Assembly: GCF_019697375.1 (NCBI RefSeq)
Contig: NZ_JAHCDI010000004.1
Span: forward strand, 4,451,324-4,515,323
Origin: Micromonospora tarapacensis
GTDB taxonomy: Bacteria > Actinomycetota > Actinomycetes > Mycobacteriales > Micromonosporaceae
Length of the DNA: 64,000 nucleotides
Reading direction: 5' to 3'
Under the pieces are notes generated by a model. It was not told where the DNA came from and did not search any database. It saw nothing but the letters and a program-made list of their open reading frames with translations. Shown here in pieces: positions 940-4,512 of the stretch. A program made the position numbers and the translations under genes. Position 1 is the first letter of the stretch; each line of letters opens with the position of its first letter.

Positions 940-2159
940 TCAGCGGGCCGGCAGCAGGTCGCCGGAGCGGGCGGCCACCACCGCGCCGATCAGCCCGATC
1001 GCCTCGGCCGCCGGCTGCGGCTCCAGCGATCGCCCGTCGCGCAGCCGCAACGCCACCCGGCCGTCGGCCGCCTCCCGGGCACCCACCACCGCGGCGTACG
1101 GGATGCGGCGGCGTACCGCGTCGCGGACCCGGGCACCGAGCGACCCGCTGTGGTCGACCTCCGCCCGCAGTCCCGCCTCGATGGCCCGTCGGGCCACGTC
1201 GGCCGCGGCATCGGCCTGGCCGTCGCCGACCGGCAGGACGATCAGTTGCACCGGGGCGTACCAGGGCGGGAAGGCGCCCCCGTGTACCTCGATCAGGTAC
1301 GCGAAGAGCCGCTCCATGCTGCCCGCCAGGCTGCGGTGCACCATCACCGGACGCCGTCGTTCGCCGTCGGCGTCGGTGTACGACAGATCGAACCGCTCCG
1401 GCTTGTCGAAGTCGAGCTGGACGGTGGAGAGGGTGTACTCGCGCTCGGCCGCGTCCCGCACCTGAATGTCGATCTTCGGGCCGTAGAAGGCGGCCTCGCC
1501 CGGCGCCTCGGTGTACGGCACCCCGTCGAGGGCGGCGCGGAGCAGGTCCTCGGCGCGCGCCCACTGCGCGTCGTCGCCGACGTACTTCTCCCCGGCCCGC
1601 GCAGCGACAGCCGTACGCCCGCCGGCCGCACGCCCAGCGCGGCGTGCGCGGCCCGGATCAGCCGCAGGATGTCCGACACCTCCTGGCCGACCTGCTCCAG
1701 GGTGCAGAAGTTGTGCGCGTCGTTCAGGGTTATGGCGCGGACCCGGGACAGCCCGCCGAGCACCCCCGAGCGTTCCGCCCGGTACATGCCACCGATCTCG
1801 GCGACCCGCAGCGGCAGATCCCGGTAGGAACGCCCGCGCGCCCGGTAGACCAGCGCATGGTGCGGGCAGAGCGCCGGTCGGAGCATCAACTCGTCGTCGG
1901 TCTCTCCCAGCCGCATCGGTGGGAACATCTCGCCGGCGAAGTAGCCGAGATGCCCGGAGACCTCGAACAGCTCCCGCCGACCCAACGGCGGGGTGTAGAC
2001 CTGCTGGTAGCCGGCGCGGCGTTCCAGCCCACGCAGGTACTCCTCGACGGCGTGCCGGGCGGCGGCGCCGGCCGGCAGCCAGATCGGCAGGCCGGTGCCG
2101 GCGAGCGGGTCGGTGGTGAACAGGTCAAGCTCCCGGCCGAGCCGGCGGTGGTCGATCAT
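940..2159 (-). CDS. Short-form threonyl-tRNA synthetase, frame broken by an apparent one-base deletion near 1590
   Basis: Class II aminoacyl-tRNA synthetase with the ThrRS catalytic core and anticodon-binding domain but without the N-terminal TGS and editing domains, about 406 aa after frame correction. ATG 2159 opens with MIDHRRLGRELDLF, the usual start of the ThrRS core, and has AAGGAG six bases upstream. Visible motifs are LMLRPALCPHH, GGMYRAERSGVLGGLSRVR (motif 2) and HNFCTLEQV. After the shift come EAAFYGPKIDIQV, STVQLDF, PVMVHRSLAGSMER (motif 3) and the anticodon domain. Frame is lost at LSLRGPG: one extra G in the run at 1590-1593 joins it to EKYVGDDAQW. I read this as a base-calling loss. 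The leader carries a Thr-codon peptide and a hairpin, so expression is probably tuned to Thr-tRNA charging. It may be a second or back-up ThrRS. Confidence 0.8.
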
Positions 2160-2194: not shown

Positions 2195-2214
2195 CAGTCA
2201 CCCGAGGAAAGCAC

Positions 2215-2243
2215 CAGGCCCCGGGCGGATCGCCCGGGGCCTG
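2215..2243 (-). terminator. Attenuator hairpin in the thrS leader
   Basis: Perfect 13-bp inverted repeat (2215-2227 and 2231-2243) with a 3-nt loop, lying 15 bases after the stop of the Thr-codon leader peptide. On the minus strand it is followed by TGCTTTCCT. Its 5' arm can alternatively pair with 2273-2287, which lies just after the three Thr codons: GCCTG with CAGGC plus most of CGCCGGGG. That is the layout expected of an antiterminator. Confidence 0.6.
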
Positions 2244-2258
2244 GGTCGACGAGAAACG

Positions 2259-2312
2259 TCAGTGCGGCACGCCAGGCTTCCCCGGCGTCGTCGTCAGCAG
2301 CGCACCAAACAT
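2259..2312 (-). CDS. Threonine-rich attenuator leader peptide, 17 aa
   Basis: Minus-strand ATG 2312 reads MFGALLTTTPGKPGVPH and stops with TGA at 2259. Codons 7 to 9 (2294-2286) are ACG ACG ACG. The reading frame ends just before a perfect terminator-like hairpin, and 100 bases further begins the threonyl-tRNA synthetase gene. Three consecutive Thr codons in an 18-codon frame placed exactly here is the classical leader-peptide attenuation layout: ribosome stalling for lack of Thr-tRNA would favour read-through. A -10-like TACGGT (2324-2319) ends six bases before the ATG, so the leader may be translated from a leaderless transcript. A GAGGTGAGGG stretch further upstream could also act as a ribosome site. 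No homologue was checked. Confidence 0.6.
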   Translation of the reverse strand: MFGALLTTTPGKPGVPH

Positions 2313-2892: not shown

Positions 2893-3003
2893 CGATCATG
2901 CAGTTGTGGCTCCTCACAAAGGCCGCGAACCGACACCAATCGGCTGCCACAACTCCATGATCGGCGAGGGGTGGGTGGGGTGGGTGGGGTGGGTGGGTGG
3001 GGT
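2893..3003. repeat. Intergenic inverted repeat followed by a G-quadruplex-like GGGT tract, copy 1
   Basis: Two 18-base arms (2893-2910 and 2946-2963) are complementary except for one central mismatch. They are followed at 2968-3003 by repeated GGGTGGGTGGGG, which abuts the lpdA stop codon. The same order (imperfect inverted repeat, then GGGTGGG tract) recurs at 22472-22574, suggesting a dispersed intergenic element. It may terminate the lpdA-like gene or the small plus-strand frame. Confidence 0.55.
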
Positions 3004-4406
3004 CATTCCAGTTCGTGGAGCATCAGTTGGCGGGCGGCCTCGCTGATCGAGCCGGAGAGGCTCGGGTAGATGGTGATGGTCTGGGCCAGCTCGTTGACGG
3101 TGAGGTTGTTCTCCACCGCCATGGTGATCGGCAGGATCAGCTCGCTGGCCTTGGGGGCGACCACCACGCCGCCGATCACCTGGCCGCTGGCCGGGCGGCA
3201 GAACAGCTTGACGAAACCGTCGGCGATCTCGTCCATCTTCGCCCGGGCGTTGCCGCCCAGCGGCAGCATCACCTGTCGCGCCGGCACCCTGCCGGCGTCC
3301 ACCTCGTCCTGCGAGACACCGACGGTGGCCAGTTCCGGGTCGGTGAAGACGTTCGCGGAGACGGTACGCAGCCGCAGCGGCCGGACCGCCTCGCCGAGCG
3401 CGTGCCACATGGCGATCCGGCCCTGCATCGCGGCGACACTGGCCAGCGGCAGCACCCCCGTGCAGTCGCCGGCCGCGTAGATGCCGGGCACGTTGGTCCG
3501 GGAGACGCGGTCCACCGTCACGTACCCGCCCCGGGCCAGTTCGACGCCGTACTCGGCGAGGCCCAACTCGGCGGTGTTGGGGATCGAGCCGACCGCGATC
3601 AGCGCGTGCGAGCCGTACACCTTGCGGCCGTCGGAGAGCTCGACCTCGACGCCGCTGTCGGTGCGGCGGACGCCCTCGGCGCGGGCGTTGTTCAGGATGC
3701 TCATGCCCCGGGTGCGGAAGACCCGCTCGATCGCCTGCGCGGCGTCGGCGTCCTCGTGTGGCATCACCCGGTCCCGGCTGGAGACCAGGGTCACCTCGAC
3801 CCCCATCGCCAGGTACGCGCTGGCGAACTCGGCGCCGGTCACGCCGGAGCCGACCACGATCAGGTGTGGCGGCAGCTCGGGCAGGTCGTACACCTGCCGC
3901 CAGGTCAGGATGCGCTCGCCGTCGGGCAGGGCGGTGGGCAGTTGGCGGGGCGTGGCACCGGTGGCGATCAGGACCGTCGCCGCGTCGATCGCGTAGGCGG
4001 CCTCCTCGCCGTCCGGCGAGACGATCACGCGGTGGGTGTGACCGAGCGTGTCCTCGCCGAGCCGGGCCCGCCCGGAGACGAAGGTGACCCCGGCCTTGAG
4101 CAGCTTGGTGTGGATGTCGGCGGACTGCGCCAGGGCGAGCCGTTTGACCCGCTCGTTGACCGTCCCGGCGTCGACGGTGACCGCCTCCAGCCCGTCGGAG
4201 TGGACCCCGAACACCTCGGTGTCGCGGTACCCGGTCACCACCTCGGAGCTGGCGATGAAGGTCTTCGACGGCACGCAGTCGGACAGTACGCAGGCGCCGC
4301 CGGCACCGTCGGCCTCCACCACGGTGACGTCGGCGTCCAGCTGGGCGGCCACCAGTGCGGCCTCGTAGCCGGCCGGCCCCCCGCCGATGATCACGATCCG
4401 GCTCAC
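3003..4406 (-). CDS. lpdA: NAD(P)H-quinone reductase / flavoprotein disulfide reductase, LpdA type
   Basis: About 467 aa, pyridine nucleotide-disulfide oxidoreductase family. GTG 4406 (or 4409) gives VSRIVIIGGGPAGYEAALVAA, so the FAD-binding Rossmann motif starts at residue 3; the open frame continues upstream but those residues resemble nothing. The redox pair appears as GGACVLSDCVPSKT (C-x4-C). The NAD(P) motif VVGSGVTGAEFAS and the second FAD motif GIYAAGDCTGVLPLAS follow. The C-terminal HxHPT motif needed by dihydrolipoamide dehydrogenases is replaced by ITIYPSLSGS, so the catalytic His is missing. That fits the mycobacterial LpdA quinone reductases and argues against a role in 2-oxoacid dehydrogenase complexes. 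Its stop codon sits inside the G-rich repeat. Confidence 0.85.
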   Translation of the reverse strand: MSRIVIIGGGPAGYEAALVAAQLDADVTVVEADGAGGACVLSDCVPSKTFIASSEVVTGYRDTEVFGVHSDGLEAVTVDAGTVNERVKRLALAQSADIHTKLLKAGVTFVSGRARLGEDTLGHTHRVIVSPDGEEAAYAIDAATVLIATGATPRQLPTALPDGERILTWRQVYDLPELPPHLIVVGSGVTGAEFASAYLAMGVEVTLVSSRDRVMPHEDADAAQAIERVFRTRGMSILNNARAEGVRRTDSGVEVELSDGRKVYGSHALIAVGSIPNTAELGLAEYGVELARGGYVTVDRVSRTNVPGIYAAGDCTGVLPLASVAAMQGRIAMWHALGEAVRPLRLRTVSANVFTDPELATVGVSQDEVDAGRVPARQVMLPLGGNARAKMDEIADGFVKLFCRPASGQVIGGVVVAPKASELILPITMAVENNLTVNELAQTITIYPSLSGSISEAARQLMLHELE

Positions 4407-4499
4407 CACGACCGCCCTTCGTCGATGCTCACAGTGACTTTCTTCCCCCCGGCGCGTCCGACACGCACCGTCGTATTCTCTCCCACGCACCGGTGGGGC

Positions 4500-4505
4500 T
4501 ATCGT
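4500..4505 (+). promoter_or_regulatory. -10 box for a leaderless gamma-glutamylcyclotransferase transcript
   Basis: TATCGT ends seven bases before the GTG start at 4513 and no Shine-Dalgarno is present, which suggests transcription starts at the initiation codon. Confidence 0.4.
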
Positions 4506-4512
4506 CATCGCC

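Follow-up and report, generated by a model that had tools for sequence, protein, structure and literature searches.

A leader on the minus strand of Micromonospora tarapacensis DNA, which stands ahead of a gene for a truncated second threonyl-tRNA synthetase (ThrRS), is probably a ribosome-mediated transcription attenuator that induces this backup enzyme when Thr-tRNA is scarce. It lies in a stretch of 64,000 nucleotides, the whole of which is called the window here. An initial annotation of this DNA had proposed a classical attenuation layout, and the proposal was supported by the conserved Thr run and hairpin, by covariation and by computed folds.

Leader frame, hairpin and gene order in the window

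The elements follow each other on the minus strand in the order -10 element, leader frame, leader stem, 14-bp hairpin and short ThrRS gene. The leader peptide ORF (positions 2312-2259, minus strand), which is conserved among homologues, is the 18-codon frame of the initial annotation; it translates as MFGALLTTTPGKPGVPH* and holds three consecutive Thr codons, ACG ACG ACG (2294-2286, minus strand), as had been claimed, which are the putative sensor codons.

Four segments were delimited on the minus strand by folding and alignment. Region 1, the 5' arm of the leader stem (ACGCCGGG, 2281..2288), begins at the third Thr codon. Region 2, the 3' arm of this stem (CCTGGCGT, 2269..2276), was placed by the folding of homologues and by a test of its duplex with region 3. 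Regions 3 and 4 are the 5' arm (CCAGGCCCCGGGCG, 2231..2244) and the 3' arm (CGCCCGGGGCCTGG, 2214..2227) of the putative terminator hairpin. This hairpin (2244-2214) was perfect, as annotated, with 14 bp, a 3-base loop and a distance of 14 bases from the leader stop codon, but its size and spacing had been given as 13 bp and 15 bases. The minimum free energy fold of 2330-2202 (-74.9 kcal/mol, z -4.2) included the hairpin, and none of 200 shuffles was equally stable. The 5' arm of the hairpin had also been said to pair alternatively with the segment just after the Thr codons, and this pairing can be read from the sequence as GCCUGG (2277-2272) with CCAGGC (2244-2239); the anti-terminator strand GCCTGG (2277-2272, minus strand) overlaps region 2.

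Two other features were seen upstream. At about 2400-2560, before the leader promoter, a strong hairpin (GGCCGCTGGCAGGTCCCGTGCCAGCGGCC) and GTCGGGTCCCCCGTTCCTGA make up a block that was present again in many same-genus loci and, by eye, was not seen in loci L020 and L036. At 2894-3003, downstream of an NAD(P)H-quinone dehydrogenase ORF (3003-4508, minus strand), an imperfect inverted repeat (GATCATGCAGTTGTGGC ... GCCACAACTCCATGATC) adjoined a G-rich GGGTGGGGTGGG repeat.

The short ThrRS gene and the housekeeping ThrRS

The frame was correctly placed upstream of a ThrRS gene, with the Shine-Dalgarno (SD) sequence AAGGAG (2171-2166, minus strand) and the ATG (2159) of that gene downstream of it, and a frameshift in the gene had been missed. 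The gene (940..2159, minus strand), as identified by profile and sequence matches, encodes a catalytic core and an anticodon-binding domain without tRNA_SAD. The frameshift, near 1584-1593, divides it into two tblastn segments in frames -2 and -1, which were 91% and 85% identical to a Micromonospora phaseoli protein, and it is either a sequencing error or a recent loss. Both halves matched thrS best, and each alone scored under the TIGR00418 cut-off. The intact M. phaseoli short ThrRS reached 421.5 bits with the TIGR00418 thrS model, whose cut-off is 383.65, and by the score of this relative the gene behind the leader acts on the amino acid of the leader's codon run. Intact genes were found in relatives, with no internal stop within the match among the matches listed of the nearby-genome search. 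Among those listed of the family search, six had an internal stop (G126, G138, G178, G192, G251 and G257), which may lie before the real start codon.

A 668-aa ThrRS with an editing domain is encoded elsewhere in the window's genome. The editing domain tRNA_SAD (PF07973) was present in this enzyme and absent from the M. phaseoli short ThrRS, and the two proteins were 41% identical over 401 aa. One short ThrRS (L009:1516-2733) scored 349 bits against the ThrRS of PDB 1nyq, which we take to be that of Staphylococcus aureus, and about 260 bits against the E. coli ThrRS. There is a hint in the protein sequences that the short ThrRS has an ancestry separate from that of the housekeeping gene.

A resistance marker of the ObaO type, in which Gly463 of ThrRS is changed (PMC11252418, available portion), was considered for the short enzyme and rejected. 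The motif AAFYG, which in our reading of the alignment would correspond to Tyr462-Gly463, occurred 72 times in the 72 named loci of the short ThrRS (records of Micromonospora, Salinispora, Verrucosispora, Plantactinospora, Asanoa and Actinoplanes), and this published marker is therefore absent.

Conservation of the leader

We analyzed 126 regions upstream of short ThrRS genes, comprising 46 loci from two genome searches and 80 more that were fetched; this set is a subset of all matches and includes the window and two genomes of other families (L119 and L120). A leader ORF was chosen in all 126 regions; three of these required a looser Thr pattern. The Thr run that had been noticed in one leader recurs in its homologues, with three consecutive Thr codons in 122 of the 126 and two in the remaining 4. 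A short ORF with Thr-Thr-Thr was present in the last 300 nt of 122 regions, whereas 20 rounds of dinucleotide shuffling gave 0.65 such regions on average and 3 at most. For the 300 nt upstream of the window gene, 0.5% of 2000 dinucleotide shuffles gave such an ORF. At housekeeping thrS, none of 20 stretches of 801 nt that span the start had a Thr-Thr-Thr leader.

The pattern of variation suggests that the leader is translated. Among 52 distinct 17-aa leaders, codon 7 was Thr in 50, with a variable third base (ACC in 28, ACG in 21, ACT in 1), the variation at Gly11 was mostly in the third base, and the mean entropy of the leader codons peaked at the third position (0.82 vs 0.55 and 0.58). The start codon was ATG in 122 of the 126 leaders and GTG in 4, in a search that preferred ATG. 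The sensor Thr codons were mainly ACG, a codon that accounts for 23% of the Thr codons in 32 long window ORFs; at the third Thr codon, ACG may be forced by the stem.

Alignment and covariation of the RNA stems

Compensatory changes in the stems, which the initial annotation had named as a check, were found in a structure alignment of 58 non-redundant leaders, mostly in the terminator. The RNAalifold consensus consisted of two helices, which are the leader stem and the terminator; of its 14 pairs, 7 showed double changes, and the terminator accounted for 6 of the 7. Consensus pairing was seen in 95.4% of cells, compared with 86.4% in shuffled and at most 61% in slid alignments, and the covariation score was 0.278, compared with 0.131 and at most 0.117, respectively. 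The leader stem was almost invariant in these leaders (double change in 1 of 5 pairs, in one sequence), and nearly fixed codons could explain this conservation; the loop of stem 1 varied among homologues. In two more distant leaders the stem differed: that of L245 was rebuilt, with CGACGGGT..ACCCGTCG possible instead of CGCCGGG..CCCGGCG, and that of L244 was also different.

Computed folding states and ribosome geometry

Folds of the 126 leaders were computed for three states. With no ribosome, stem 1:2 (at least 4 bp) formed in 120 of the 126; with a ribosome stalled on the Thr codons, the anti-terminator 2:3 (at least 5 bp) formed in 113; with a ribosome at the stop codon, the terminator 3:4 (at least 6 bp) formed in 124, and the hairpin of the initial annotation is in this sense present in the homologous leaders as well. 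The outcome that the initial annotation had named as a refutation, homologues without the Thr run or the hairpin, was thus not what the comparison gave. By computation, the stems were mutually exclusive and the geometry was set by the ribosome. The 13 leaders with fewer than 5 bp between regions 2 and 3 were nine bulged hairpins called as only 6 bp and four misplaced calls. The stalled-state fold was little better than mononucleotide shuffles (median z -1.25).

Region 1 ended at t+13 in 110 of the 126 leaders and region 2 started at t+18 in 100, where t is the start of the Thr run; a ribosome whose A site is occupied by Thr codon 2 was assumed to reach about t+15. A ribosome at the stop codon was taken to reach about nine bases beyond it, so that in most leaders it covers region 2 and not the terminator, which lay 6-31 nt after the stop codon (11-14 nt in 59 of the 126).

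The duplex of regions 2 and 3 was compared in 67 leaders by a permutation that treats the leaders as if they were unrelated. The mean for own partners was -12.8, against -12.26 (sd 0.13) for permuted partners and -10.3 for scrambled region 3, and none of 2000 permutations was as strong. Leader by leader, only 43 of the 67 paired with their own partner at least as strongly as they did on average with partners from other species. Since the 2:3 pairing has about 6 bp and is weaker than the terminator, it must win kinetically.

Putative promoter and predicted leaderless start

A putative -10 element, TACGGT (2324-2319, minus strand), lies 6 nt before the leader ATG. In the columns of the 126 upstream regions, position -12 was T or A in 125, position -11 was A in 83 and position -7 was T in 86; a simple sigma-70 scan of the window gave no promoter at the leader. 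In actinobacteria, a -10 element six bases before a start codon implies a leaderless mRNA, and the six bases between this element and the ATG therefore imply a leaderless leader mRNA here. Transcription would thus start at or beside the leader ATG, as reported for the homologue of Streptomyces lividans, where a start downstream of the hairpin is argued against because thrL was described as leaderless (PMC8079986, available text).

Distribution of the leader and the short ThrRS

The short ThrRS was matched at E 6e-84 or better in 49 of 61 same-genus genomes, own genome included (counted by eye), in a search of 101 nearby genomes; among 250 genomes of the family, 174 had a match at E 1e-60 or better. 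A covariance model of the leader matched the own genome clearly at a single place (E 3.7e-18; the second-best match had 0.0018), and 26 matches passed E 0.001 in 396 genomes of the phylum. Among the matches that were read, the own copy and eight others (L214-L220 and L223) had a Thr leader before a short ThrRS, and four of these eight were outside the window's class; the other matches had no Thr leader before a ThrRS.

In a second search of 396 phylum genomes, nine contained a short ThrRS with an E value no higher than 1e-120; these exclude the own frameshifted copy and the gene behind L215. Seven of these nine were covariance model matches, and the other two (L244 and L245) had leaders with a Thr run. 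In genus g75, presumably Streptomyces to judge by the likeness of its leaders, the short ThrRS was present in 96 of 199 genomes. Thirty loci of this genus, mostly the best-scoring, were read; 29 had the leader, with three Thr in 28 and two in L290, while before the short ThrRS of L288 no Thr leader was found and the hairpin was kept. In many actinobacteria, the leader and its hairpins most likely turn on a spare ThrRS when charged Thr-tRNA is low.

One of the other model matches, a weak one, was the locus L228 (G394:C2:271945-272066), which had a valine leader, MQRHQHVVVPGLREGLVP*, and a hairpin before an alternative ValRS (alt_ValS). Matches to alt_ValS were found in 67 genomes; in 30 other loci of these, no Val-Val-Val frame occurred within 300 nt upstream. 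The valine leader looks isolated, and a general rule of such leaders at spare synthetases was rejected.

Termination and alternative explanations

A scan of the window for terminators with a U-tract found none. Near the hairpin end, none of 58 same-genus loci had a T-run longer than 3, and just 3 loci reached that length; over all 126 loci, T-runs of 4-6 followed the hairpin in 8. Examples of relatives with a T-run are L106 and L119. Termination in the window would depend on a U-less hairpin, on kinetic help or on Rho, a view that draws partly on the relatives with a U-tract.

The strong hairpin without a U-tract in the same-genus set would also fit translational control, in which the leader and the position of its ribosome govern a downstream hairpin that hides the SD, and the strong hairpin is a spacer or stabiliser. 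Such an SD-hiding hairpin is exemplified in the same-genus set by CCTCCgGGTCGtacCCGATCaaGGAG, and the accessibility of the SD, scored in 124 of the 126 loci, was lower there than in shuffles (mean unpaired 0.32 vs 0.45; lower in 88% of 58 loci). Outside this set, however, the effect was small (0.31 vs 0.36; lower in 62% of 66 loci), and in a 16-locus alignment the SD region was only partly conserved, whereas stem 1 and the terminator persist. The T-runs of 4-6 in 8 of the 126 loci are, moreover, as expected of an intrinsic terminator. We consider translational control alone unlikely; the SD hairpin may add a translational layer in the same-genus set, where its support is partial.

That neither the window nor the same-genus set has a U-tract would also suit Rho-dependent or polarity-type attenuation, a route suggested for mycobacterial cys leaders (PMC1262725, available text), with leader translation controlling the access of Rho and the hairpin stabilising the mRNA 3' end. 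However, the hairpin covaries and stands close behind the stop codon, at the distances given above, and T-runs follow it in some lineages. This account appears quite improbable.

ThrRS genes elsewhere use both T-box control and ThrRS-operator control, which makes a T-box, or a ThrRS-binding element like the E. coli thrS operator, with the peptide frame incidental, worth weighing. At gathering thresholds no Rfam model matched the window, and a T-box or other Rfam element was rejected on this ground; mimicry of the operator was rejected because the loop of stem 1 varies. In addition, the first Thr codon keeps Thr despite synonymous changes, and such an element is very improbable. A chance frame beside an ordinary hairpin, for which the many short frames and hairpins of GC-rich DNA could be cited, is refuted by the conservation (122 of 126 regions vs a shuffled maximum of 3, and presence across families and classes), and its probability is close to nil.

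Discussion

In the attenuation model, RNA polymerase would start at or beside the leader ATG and a ribosome would load on the leaderless end. With plentiful charged tRNA-Thr, the ribosome would reach the stop codon and cover region 2, so that the terminator 3:4 forms and stops transcription. Under threonine starvation or ThrRS inhibition, with Thr-tRNA in short supply, the ribosome would stall on the Thr run and cover region 1; region 2 would then be free to pair with region 3 as the anti-terminator, and the short ThrRS would be transcribed. Without a ribosome, stem 1:2 would form and the terminator would again be permitted. As the product is a truncated second ThrRS, the device would switch on a backup enzyme. 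A wider reading is offered tentatively: a phylum-wide, leaderless, Thr-sensing attenuator would silence a truncated, editing-free spare ThrRS until Thr-tRNA runs out, also where natural soil ThrRS inhibitors block the housekeeping ThrRS, and in Micromonospora it would terminate without a U-tract. Taken jointly, these parts are possible rather than likely.

In enteric bacteria, amino-acid attenuators control thrABC, his, trp and pheST. In actinobacteria, Seliverstov et al. (2005; PMC1262725) described attenuators at trp, trpS and leuS, whereas upstream of the threonine operons of the genomes they studied they reported no RNA structures that are conserved. Like all of these attenuators, the element described here has a leader peptide rich in the regulated amino acid. 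The element also shares with classical attenuators the mutually exclusive stems 1:2, 2:3 and 3:4 and the ribosome geometry. It differs from them in a probably leaderless start, in a genus without a U-tract at the hairpin and in a truncated second synthetase as the target. In Bacillus, thrZ is a second ThrRS gene under the control of a T-box, which senses uncharged tRNA directly. The function is alike, as in both a second ThrRS would stay off until Thr-tRNA runs short, but here, where the window has no T-box match, the translation of a leader peptide would sense Thr-tRNA.

The initial annotation knew of no attenuator of this kind at an actinobacterial thrS; this has to be amended, because a 2021 study of S. 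lividans had reported a thrL attenuator ahead of thrS, and the window element thus has a published sister in Streptomyces. In S. lividans TK24, thrL-thrS (SLIV_19412/SLIV_19410) was leaderless in an RNA-seq study, with the peptide MKRVRPFLETTPGFVPAR, and its one hairpin had no uridine-rich sequence, termination being called not clear (PMC8079986, available text). This peptide has the same pattern as the g75 leaders found here, for example MKRAAVTTTPESVPAR, but the exact peptide was not among the g75 loci fetched. The window leader resembles S. lividans thrL in its TT(T)P core, its leaderless start, which is predicted here from the -10 spacing, the thrS gene that comes next and one hairpin without a U-tract; S. 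lividans thrL differs in having two Thr, was described in one genome, and comes without an alternative pairing in the portion of the source that was available (PMC8079986). The likeness is at the level of the leader, and SLIV_19410 is taken here by its thrS name. Beyond S. lividans thrL, searches of the open-licence PMC literature listed no other description; in the literature covered we met neither the wide distribution nor the four-segment architecture nor a connection with a truncated second ThrRS.

These results turn the remark on the termination of S. lividans thrL into a concrete four-segment model that can be tested. The position and covariation of the hairpin are kept with or without a U-tract, which provides a natural comparison for termination by actinobacterial RNA polymerase. 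A widespread short ThrRS is tied to a likely sensor of charged tRNA-Thr.
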